The notes under the pieces: generated by a model
Seen by the model: the letters and a program-made list of their open reading frames with translations, nothing else
The model's database searches: none
Told to the model about the DNA's origin: nothing
Source: Pedobacter schmidteae
GTDB lineage: Bacteria > Bacteroidota > Bacteroidia > Sphingobacteriales > Sphingobacteriaceae
Assembly: GCF_900564155.1 (NCBI RefSeq)
Contig: NZ_LS999839.1
Coordinates: forward strand, 5,701,097-5,765,096
Direction: 5' to 3'
DNA length: 64,000 bases
Program-made: the position numbers and the translations under genes
Part shown: positions 38,660-62,589 of the stretch, one piece after another
How positions within the stretch are numbered: position 1 is the first letter of the stretch
Layout of the letters: each line of letters begins with the position of its first letter

Positions 38660-38745
38660 CTGTATCATTAATCCGGTCGTCATCCTGAATTTATTTCAGG
38701 ATCTCGAAACGCATAAAGAATTGCATACACGGATTAATGATACAG
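38660..38745. terminator. Composite palindrome: REP-like repeat nested in a 16-bp stem
   Basis: The outer arms CTGTATCATTAATCCG (38660-38675) and CGGATTAATGATACAG (38730-38745) pair perfectly. Inside lies the REP-like unit starting CGTCATCCTGAATTTATTT at 38678, whose own stem is TCCTGAA/TTCAGGA (38683-38689, 38695-38701). It sits between convergent metA and locus 4, so it may end transcription from both sides. T-tracts are short, hence moderate confidence for termination. Confidence 0.6.
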
Positions 38746-60563: not shown

Positions 60564-61148
60564 ATGAATAGTTATAATGCCTACAACGATCAGGAATTAG
60601 CTGCCTTACTTATGGGGGGAGACAGAAAGGCTTATGCCGAGATTTTTGAAAGGTATTCGCGGTTACTCATTGCACATGCCTATAAAATACTGGCAGACCA
60701 GGATGCAGCGAGCGACATAGTCCATGATGTCATATTGAACCTATGGGAAAAGAGAACGCAAATCAATTTGAATTTCTCGTTAAGTGGCTATCTCTACATC
60801 GCGGTGCGCAACCGCATATTCAATGCCATGTCCCATAAAAAGGTTGCCGGTAAATATGCAGAGTCGATAATTGCCTATATGGAAGGTACACACGTGCACT
60901 CCGACGATCAGTTACGGGAAAAAGAGCTTACGGCACTTTTGGAAAAGGAAATCAACGCGTTACCCGAAAAAATGCGGGAAGTGTTCATTTTATACAAAAT
61001 GGAGGAGCTGAGTTATAAGGAAATTGCCGATCGTTTAGGCATTACCGACAAAACTGCAAAACAGCAGGTTTACAATGCCGTCAAAATCCTCAAAACAAAA
61101 ATCGATATCTATTTAACCCTCCTTCCCATCCTCTACCAGCATTTGTAG
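60564..61148 (+). CDS. ECF RNA polymerase sigma factor (locus 5)
   Basis: 194 residues. Region 2 has FERYSRLLIAHAYKILADQD, then ASDIVHDVILNLWEKRTQIN, then YLYIAVRNRIFNAMSHKKVA. Region 4 has NALPEKMREVFILYKMEELS and IADRLGITDKTAKQQVYNAV. A short hydrophobic tail (IYLTLLPILYQHL) ends the protein. It opens locus 5, with FecR 217 bases downstream; that gap holds a half REP-like repeat. Confidence 0.92.
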   Translation: MNSYNAYNDQELAALLMGGDRKAYAEIFERYSRLLIAHAYKILADQDAASDIVHDVILNLWEKRTQINLNFSLSGYLYIAVRNRIFNAMSHKKVAGKYAESIIAYMEGTHVHSDDQLREKELTALLEKEINALPEKMREVFILYKMEELSYKEIADRLGITDKTAKQQVYNAVKILKTKIDIYLTLLPILYQHL

Positions 61149-61190: not shown

Positions 61191-61219
61191 CGTCATCCTG
61201 AATTTATTTTGCATGACGG
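61191..61219 (+). repeat. REP-like repeat, partial copy
   Basis: CGTCATCCTGAATTTATTT at 61191-61209 is identical over 19 bases to the repeat at 38678. The usual closing half (TTCAGGATCTC) is replaced by TGCATGACGG, which instead pairs with the opening CGTCAT. It lies between the sigma and FecR genes of locus 5. Confidence 0.7.
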
Positions 61220-61365: not shown

Positions 61366-62589
61366 ATGAACGAAGAAAAAGCTATAGCACTGATCAGAAA
61401 ATACCAGCAAGGTGAACTAACGCCCCAGCAGGAGCAACAATTAAATGAATGGTACCTCATCAATGCAACAGAAAGTAAAGCAGAACTGAATGCCGAACAA
61501 ATGGAGCAGGCTATTGAACAGCTTCGCAAAAAGTTGCCGCTACAAGACCCTGCAGTAAAAATAAAATTATGGCCACGTATTGTCGCTGCAGCTTCTGTAC
61601 TTTTAATCCTTGGTACGGGTTTGTGGTTTTACAACTCCCGTCAGGCAGGTAGTCATCATCCTGAGCTGGCGCGGGCCGGTACAGGATCTCATGACATTGC
61701 CCCGGGCAAAATAGGCGCCACACTTACCCTGGCCAATGGCAAAAAGATCAGACTATCCGATGCTGCCAATGGCGAAATTGCAAAAGAGGCAGGTATCAGT
61801 GTCACTAAAACCGCCGATGGGCAACTGATTTATGAAGTTTTAGCCAGCGGCACTTCTTCGCGACAAAACCAAAGGGGCACATCTGATCCGGGTGGAGAAA
61901 CCAACACCCTCTCTACTGCCAAAGGCGAAACCTACCAGGTGAAACTACCCGATGGCTCGTCGGTATGGCTCAATGCAGCTTCCAGTCTTACTTATACCAC
62001 CTCATTAAAGCAAGCCACAAAACGCGTTGTAGAACTTCGCGGTGAAGGCTATTTTCAAGTTGCTAAGGACAAAAAACATCCTTTTATAGTCAAAACAGCG
62101 CAACAAGAGGTACAAGTACTAGGTACGCATTTCAACATCAATAGTTACGAAAGCGAAAACGCCGTGAAAACAACGCTATTGGAAGGCTCTGTACGCGTAA
62201 GTGCCACAAACGGTCGCCACGCAGCAGCAAACGATCGGCATCCTGACCTTGTTTCAGGACCTCACACCAGCAACGCTATAACCCTCCGCCCCAACCAGCA
62301 ATCTATTTTACTAAATACCGGCATCAAAGTAATTGATGTAGATGTAGAAAGTACCATCGCCTGGAAAAATGGATATTTCCTGTTTGACAATGAAAATATC
62401 TACACCATTATGAATATGATTTCCCGCTGGTATGATGTAGAGATCGAGTATAAAGGAAATATGGACGACAAGATTTTTGTAGGCCGGATATCCAGGTTCA
62501 AAAACGTTTCTGAGGTATTGAAACTACTGGAGATGACCGGAGATATTCACTTTAAAGTCCAGGGAAGGAGGATTACTGTGATGACCTAA
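61366..62589 (+). CDS. FecR-family anti-sigma factor with DUF4974 (locus 5), with repeat-derived inserts
   Basis: 407 residues. The membrane helix is at about 70-89 (PRIVAAASVLLILGTGLWFY). The FecR core has VKLPDGSSVWLNAASSLTYT, VELRGEGYFQVAKDKKHPFI and VQVLGTHFNINSY. DUF4974 has IYTIMNMISRWYDVEIEYKG and FVGRISRFKNVSEVLKLLEM. Two inserts not found in the other FecR proteins here lie at residues 97-110 (HHPELARAGTGSHD) and about 282-302 (with RHPDLVSGPH). Both are encoded by REP-like repeat sequence read in frame, in loops between strands. The gene appears functional otherwise. Confidence 0.9.
   Translation: MNEEKAIALIRKYQQGELTPQQEQQLNEWYLINATESKAELNAEQMEQAIEQLRKKLPLQDPAVKIKLWPRIVAAASVLLILGTGLWFYNSRQAGSHHPELARAGTGSHDIAPGKIGATLTLANGKKIRLSDAANGEIAKEAGISVTKTADGQLIYEVLASGTSSRQNQRGTSDPGGETNTLSTAKGETYQVKLPDGSSVWLNAASSLTYTTSLKQATKRVVELRGEGYFQVAKDKKHPFIVKTAQQEVQVLGTHFNINSYESENAVKTTLLEGSVRVSATNGRHAAANDRHPDLVSGPHTSNAITLRPNQQSILLNTGIKVIDVDVESTIAWKNGYFLFDNENIYTIMNMISRWYDVEIEYKGNMDDKIFVGRISRFKNVSEVLKLLEMTGDIHFKVQGRRITVMT
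61654..61695 (+). repeat. REP-like repeat embedded in frame in fecR (first)
   Basis: CATCCTGAGCT at 61657 and ACAGGATCTCATGAC at 61681-61695 form the two ends of a divergent REP-like unit (TCCTG with CAGGA). Read in the FecR frame it encodes HHPELARAGTGSHD, just after the membrane helix. Confidence 0.5.
62236..62265 (+). repeat. REP-like repeat embedded in frame in fecR (second)
   Basis: CGGCATCCTGACCTTGTTTC followed by AGGACCTCAC matches the REP-like pattern (stem TCCTGA/TCAGGA at 62241-62246 and 62254-62259). It encodes RHPDLVSGPH, residues 291-300, exactly where the other FecR proteins have a shorter loop. Confidence 0.65.

Follow-up and report, generated by a model that had tools for sequence, protein, structure and literature searches.

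How does a non-coding repeat come to encode part of a protein? An anti-sigma gene of Pedobacter schmidteae raises this question. It lies in a stretch of 64,000 nucleotides (the window) from a genome that consists of one contig of 6.2 Mb. A preliminary description of the window had proposed that two copies of a REP-like repeat, which also occurs between genes, were absorbed in frame into this gene, where they encode extra loops.

The FecR gene and its repeats

The gene's product has the FecR and FecR_C domains and a helix (residues 69-95 of an AlphaFold model) that we take to be the transmembrane helix, and the gene adjoins that of an ECF sigma factor (Table 1), so we consider it a FecR-type anti-sigma regulator. 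The upstream sigma factor, the single transmembrane helix, the FecR domain, and the conserved Gly-Thr are all as in known FecR-type regulators. What sets it apart is that it is one of many Bacteroidota paralogs with a FecR_C domain and that the linkers are partly made of repeats. The Gly-Thr bond is described as the point of self-cleavage in FecR-type proteins of other bacteria (PMC9249621), and by analogy, the window protein may be self-cleaved there as well. We will refer to three linkers of these proteins: A, after the putative transmembrane helix; B, before the FecR domain; and C, between the FecR and FecR_C domains.

Table 1. Positions of the FecR gene, its parts, and nearby features within the window
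Feature	Positions	Strand	Remarks
Intact intergenic REP, P. schmidteae type (reference copy)	38678..38704	+	
ECF sigma factor gene	60564..61148	+	Directly upstream of the FecR gene; Pfam Sigma70_r2 and Sigma70_r4_2
Truncated CGTC-type REP (CGTCATCCTGAATTTATTTTGCATGACGG)	61191..61219	+	Between the sigma factor and FecR genes; exact TCATCCTGA at 61193
FecR-type anti-sigma regulator, 407 aa, intact	61366..62589	+	Pfam FecR at 181-277, FecR_C at 337-405
Linker A with probable worn REP, after the transmembrane helix	61654..61695	+	Arms at 61657-61689, 17-base core
Linker B, long (30 residues)	61837..61919	+	No recognised REP half-site
Gly-Thr, residues 253-254	62122..62127	+	Invariant in 87 sequences
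Linker C, 28 residues, between FecR and FecR_C domains	62200..62277	+	
In-frame REP reading RHPDLVSGP, in linker C	62236..62262	+	2 of 27 bases mismatch the genus consensus

The repeat of P. schmidteae is CGTCATCCTGAATTTATTTCAGGATCT. A tolerant scan lists at least 64 copies, and 32 of those 64 form 16 inverted pairs (dimers) about 55 bp apart. Most of the copies whose flanks were seen are preceded by CGTC. The stem (ATCCTGAA / TTCAGGAT) has 8 bp and the loop (mostly TTTAT or CTTGT) has 5 bases, which fits CGTC-type REPs, with stems of 8-9 bp that start with A-T, T-A and loops of 4-5 bases. Instead of CCA, the tail has CT or CC and then varied bases; CCA fits most but not all tails of CGTC REPs (PMC3733652). 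The intergenic copies that had been reported at 38678 and, in partial form, at 61191 are indeed present, the first of them intact.

We found no Y1_Tnp gene in the P. schmidteae genome (0 matches to PF01797), so the RAYT-type transposase that the preliminary description suggested looking for did not turn up. The repeats resemble REPINs in that they form inverted pairs, and they differ from the REPIN/RAYT system in that no Y1_Tnp was found in the genome and in that they are of the CGTC rather than the GTAG type. Y1_Tnp is present in 24 of the 31 genomes searched, and, judged by eye, the number of RAYTs does not visibly track that of REPs across these 31 genomes. RAYT as the mover is not supported for P. 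schmidteae.

Within the gene, the copy in linker C is nearly canonical, as had been claimed. Its core is CCTTGT, as compared to ATTTAT in most listed copies from P. schmidteae, and it is the only exact match in that genome to the CTTGTTTC-core pattern. (CTTGT and TTTAT cores are both common among the listed copies from the genus.) It is preceded by CGGC rather than CGTC, and it is a single copy, not a dimer. Given the odd core and the lack of other matches, this copy may have come with the gene from a relative, or it may have outlived its kind.

In linker A, the match to the REP is confined to the arms (CATCCTGA and CAGGATCT), which are separated by 17 bases instead of 8, and there is no ungapped match to the REP within 8 mismatches. 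The pair of arms was absent from all 20,000 codon shuffles of the gene, so the match is unlikely to be due to chance, and linker A likely contains a worn copy. A similarly expanded copy is found in linker B of another FecR (L087).

As compared to three paralogs in the window (the fourth, with 319 aa, is too short to measure), linker A has 22 residues instead of 18-20, linker B has 30 instead of 18-23, and linker C has 28 instead of 8-14. Judging by these lengths, linker C is a real extra loop, and linker A is barely longer than in the paralogs. In other words, for the second of the two proposed loops, we support the idea that a repeat became protein within an intact regulator; for the first, whose arms do match the repeat but which is hardly an extra loop, the idea is only plausible. 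The long linker B had been missed. The other four FecRs of the window were said to lack the loops, and none of them has a match to the REP with 8 or fewer mismatches in 27 bases.

The preliminary description also expected a clear comparison of before and after, but the best listed homologues are just 51% identical over their full length, or up to 57% over part of it. (We searched 145 genomes from the genus and scored at most 12 candidates per genome.) None of the listed homologues is close enough to serve as an orthologue with an empty site. Nor is this gene a single unusual case: we found CGTC-type repeats, belonging to several families, in these three linkers in 20 FecR genes (11 genomes). 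If the match were a coincidence, then distant orthologues might have the same loops with unrelated codons; instead, the other FecRs share the DNA repeat itself.

Repeats inside and outside of FecR genes

We classified 288 distinct exact copies of this first REP family from sampled Pedobacter, including 23 from P. schmidteae. These are part of the genus' copies, taken from the matches listed, at places that were chosen by hand with suspected coding clusters first. We included loci that were fetched by the REP pattern or by place around listed REPs and excluded loci that were fetched otherwise. Almost all of the copies (274/288) lie outside of any ORF of 100 aa or more. Nine FecR genes contain ten copies (one of these genes, L101, is truncated to an N-terminal piece), a GH2 gene contains one, and three copies are in short and doubtful ORFs of 103-142 aa (L115, L137, and L371, the last without a Pfam match). 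So, 10 of the 11 copies in recognisable genes are in FecR. If FecR accounts for 1.1% of coding DNA (assuming 1170 bp per gene and that 88% of the genome is coding) and if the copies are independent, then the binomial P is about 3e-19; because the copies are not independent, this overstates the significance. Across 12 genomes, 8 of which were picked for having a FecR with the repeat, we found 17-115 matches to PF04773 per genome, or about 1% of the DNA at 1170 bp each. P. schmidteae had the most (115).

The GH2 gene (L096, at G086:C182) has an in-frame antisense REP and is the only recognisable gene in the census that is not a FecR. Beside this REP is a second peptide that resembles a repeat, IPAQAGIS.

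Among the 30 copies with loci from the tolerant scan of P. schmidteae, the window's FecR contains one, and the other 29 lie outside of any ORF of 100 aa. In other genera of the bacterial family, none of 32 REPs (at 30 loci) is in a FecR and one is at codon 10 of an ORF; 32 copies are too few to claim that other genera differ. Some REPs form regularly spaced arrays, with spacings of about 116-370 bp (151-153 in two genomes), and these lie outside of any ORF of 100 aa or more (G010:C12:94463-94722, G129:C50:33145-33470, G140:C7:137429-137757, and G144:C26:6754-7706). The REP clusters of G010 were suspected to be coding, but they lie in no ORF of 130 aa.

Three of the repeat's six frames are open, and all three are used in FecRs, on both strands. 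The same-strand frames give RHPELVSGS or RHPEFISGS and, in L311, VILNSFQDP; the opposite-strand frame gives EILKQVQDD or similar (L086 and L160). The use of three frames and both strands implies that DNA was inserted, not that a peptide was conserved. One gene (L160, also seen as L129) has three REPs, one per linker.

FecRs also contain other CGTC-type repeats. With four families of repeats and exact half-sites, we found 47 half-sites in 17 of 159 FecRs (0-1 in codon-shuffled sequences) and just 1 in 224 other ORFs (shuffled, 0-1). The contrast is smaller if one mismatch is tolerated, at 93 half-sites in 23 of 159 FecRs (shuffled, 3-7) and 14 in 11 of 224 other ORFs (shuffled, 1-13). The 17 FecRs with exact half-sites, the window gene, L517, and L518 make up the 20 repeat-bearing genes. 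Some of the FecRs were fetched because of a repeat; without them, exact half-sites are in 8 of 144 FecRs versus 1 of 224 control ORFs (P = 0.003, Fisher exact test; counts taken by hand). (Eleven FecRs came from repeat-fetched loci; L085, the gene of L087, was kept because it was also found by homology.) Four of those 8 FecRs are from G032, which we infer to be P. ginsengisoli. In a de novo comparison to intergenic pieces, 14 of 158 FecR ORFs had repeats, versus 2 of 224 other ORFs, in each of which the repeat was among the first 34 codons. In P. schmidteae, 20 further FecRs have no half-site, even with one mismatch allowed. A list of overrepresented intergenic words was mostly other repeated sequence and was set aside.

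The linkers of G032's FecRs are assembled from several CGTC repeats. For the CGTCATTGCGAG pattern, 18 of the 67 half-sites in this genome are, by their coordinates, in seven FecR genes, versus 0.36 expected. Of the 43 half-sites with ORF context, 24 are in no ORF of 150 aa, 18 are in FecR (3 of these are also inside a 218-aa antisense ORF), and one is at codon 9 of another ORF. Of the six G032 FecRs that were chosen by Pfam coordinates alone, four have exact half-sites. Linker B of L089 contains a complete CGTCATTGCGAGG-type inverted dimer, and repeats occur in every linker of L474. The CGTCATTGCGAGG repeat is abundant in many other Pedobacter genomes, but we found no copy in P. schmidteae. 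Genus-wide, 35 of 39 half-sites (at 30 loci) are outside of ORFs of 150 aa, two are at codons 2-9 of one ORF, and two are in linker C of FecRs from G022 and G023, where each is its genome's single CGTCATTGCGAGG match.

Different palindromes are found in a few FecRs. L472 has CCCGAAGTAAATTCGGG in frame at one edge of its transmembrane segment, and in linker A of both L219 and L472, the REP is replaced by a CCCCGAA..TTCGGGG palindrome. In another genome, G012, the one exact REP match is inside a FecR. As in G022 and G023, the sole exact match to the searched pattern lies within FecR, as if preserved by the gene.

Why the repeats are in FecR linkers

The three linkers are modeled with low confidence by AlphaFold. 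For the window protein (87 sequences; mean pLDDT of 86.7), the only runs of at least three residues with pLDDT below 50 are in linker A (96-105) and linker C (296-301), and ten-residue blocks in linker B have means of 55 and 68. The one other block below 70 is 61-70 (59), before the transmembrane helix. For L474, pLDDT is below 50 in parts of linkers B and C (170-186, 196-200, 210-212, and 349-351), linker A is modeled as a helix (72-79), and the cytoplasmic block 81-90 has a pLDDT of 55. Linkers that bear REPs are longer: the medians are 27 versus 10 residues for C, 21 versus 18 for A, and 24 versus 20 for B.

We think it probable that REPs have repeatedly inserted into permissive linkers of FecR, were tolerated there, and then spread by duplication and recombination. 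CGTC-type REPs, which are small palindromes with an 8-bp stem, spread within Pedobacter genomes and are rarely found inside genes, presumably because they are purged from other genes. They would insert again and again into FecR anti-sigma genes, where they may survive because of the three flexible linkers. Because three of the six frames are open, an in-frame insertion would add some 9-30 tolerated residues and might be nearly neutral. Such a REP could then be inherited with its gene, could multiply as the many FecR paralogs duplicate and recombine, and might outlive the other copies of its kind in the genome. However, permissive linkers alone leave it unexplained that flexible linkers in other proteins are spared.

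The distribution of the repeats across a tree of 110 FecRs from the Pedobacter group, of which 18 have repeats, indicates both several origins and shared descent. The repeat label needs 8 changes on this tree, and at least 4 of these are forced by its starred branches. (This was a quick tree without bootstrap, with a warning about one long-branch join, and mosaicism may distort it.) If the labels are shuffled, an average of 16.8 changes are needed, and 0 of 500 shuffles needed as few as 8. Of the 18 repeat-bearing FecRs, 13 are in one set of 28 rows (SH-aLRT 99). Because the repeats cluster on the tree, part of the count of repeats is due to shared ancestry.

Peptides such as RHPELVSGS might instead resemble a translated REP by chance or by convergence, and it is true that the linkers are variable and that linker A of the window gene lacks an ungapped match. 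But we consider this extremely improbable: 13 copies in FecRs have 0-2 mismatches in 27 bases and none have 3-7, while codon-shuffled sequences (one for each of 120 FecR ORFs) gave none below 8. (Since all ungapped matches have either 0-2 or at least 8 mismatches, we saw no graded wear of the copies within genes.) For linker C of the window gene, this gap rules out chance. Also, chance would not account for repeats in three frames and on two strands or for inverted dimers in linker B of G032's genes. Another explanation, which seems distinctly unlikely to us, is that the inserts are selected for a function, such as the reach of the periplasmic domain, access for proteases, or an mRNA hairpin, located between domains, that tunes the amount of FecR. 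Stepwise proteolysis does activate FecR-type proteins (PMC9249621), and G012, G022, and G023 retain little-changed copies and have no other exact match to the searched pattern. (Between the FecRs of G022 and G023, a segment of linker C is identical over 45 bases, while the other segments, except for linker B, are 92-97% identical.) Yet the same linkers are served by peptides from unrelated frames, and most of the FecRs that we examined have no inserts. Furthermore, in these two sister genes (L517 and L518, 92.6% identical over 2.2 kb), the one difference in length is of 15 bases, within a repeat of linker B, and that linker is just 84% identical without the gaps.

The repeats might also be kept because they are joints: at the domain borders of many paralogs, they would provide homology, and recombination could exchange sigma-binding N-termini, FecR domains, and C-terminal domains among the paralogs. 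This is possible but unlikely. In its favor, eight repeat-bearing FecRs of G032 look mosaic: their identity at fourfold-degenerate third positions peaks from linker A through B (0.54, 0.57, and 0.53), as compared to 0.33 at the N-terminus and 0.27 for random codons. Similarly, linker B is 99% identical between L089 and L219 (117 bases), versus 34% for the N-terminus and 54% for the C-terminus. These sequences suggest exchange between FecR paralogs, in this one genome. But the region behind linker C (0.51, then 0.44) and the FecR domain (0.44) have raised identity as well, and the value is just 0.28 right before linker C. The G032 paralogs may be young duplicates with changed N-termini. FecR sets from G000 (P. 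schmidteae), G025, and G033 have fourfold identities of 0.17-0.40 and no peak at linkers A-B, but these sets, unlike that of G032, were not chosen for their repeats. We prefer recurrent insertion into tolerant linkers, with recombination among paralogs as a probable means of later spread.

Relation to known repeats

Palindromes that lie in frame within genes, which stay open, are reportedly known from Rickettsia (the palindromic elements RPE-1 to RPE-6 of Ogata, Claverie and co-workers). These elements hit many unrelated genes. The Pedobacter palindromes are likewise in frame within open genes, but they are concentrated in FecR, between domains. RPE-4 and RPE-6 are CGTC REPs (PMC3733652). The Pedobacter repeats are similar to the CGTC-tagged REPs of Di Nocera et al. 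2013 (PMC3733652): both have the CGTC end, an 8-bp stem with the A-T pair first, and a 5-base loop; both form inverted dimers and are mostly intergenic, with some copies in genes; and both lack a dedicated transposase. The intragenic CGTC REPs of that study are scattered among unrelated genes, many of which function in DNA repair, and the possible neutrality of insertions into linkers was already suggested there. In contrast, nearly all of the in-gene copies that we sampled from Pedobacter are in three linkers of one family, with several families of repeats and dimers per gene. The words Pedobacter and FecR are both absent from the main text of that study, and our literature search, with most subscription journals out of reach, did not find the concentration of REPs in FecR in print. 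In-frame REPs were already known, so their concentration in one family of regulators is the apparent novelty.

Coding REPs have been known mainly as scattered insertions in unrelated genes. In the FecR family, several families of REPs are in the same three linkers, which provides natural replicates of a non-coding repeat becoming protein, and close pairs such as L517 and L518 let evolution inside the inserts be followed. A bolder and rather improbable idea is that REPs of several families are exchangeable joints of a large anti-sigma family and allow its sensor and sigma-binding modules to recombine, so that a selfish intergenic repeat diversifies signaling at the cell surface of Pedobacter. 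If so, REPs would be tied to the expansion of sigma/anti-sigma pairs in the Bacteroidota, many of which are thought to control the use of polysaccharides.
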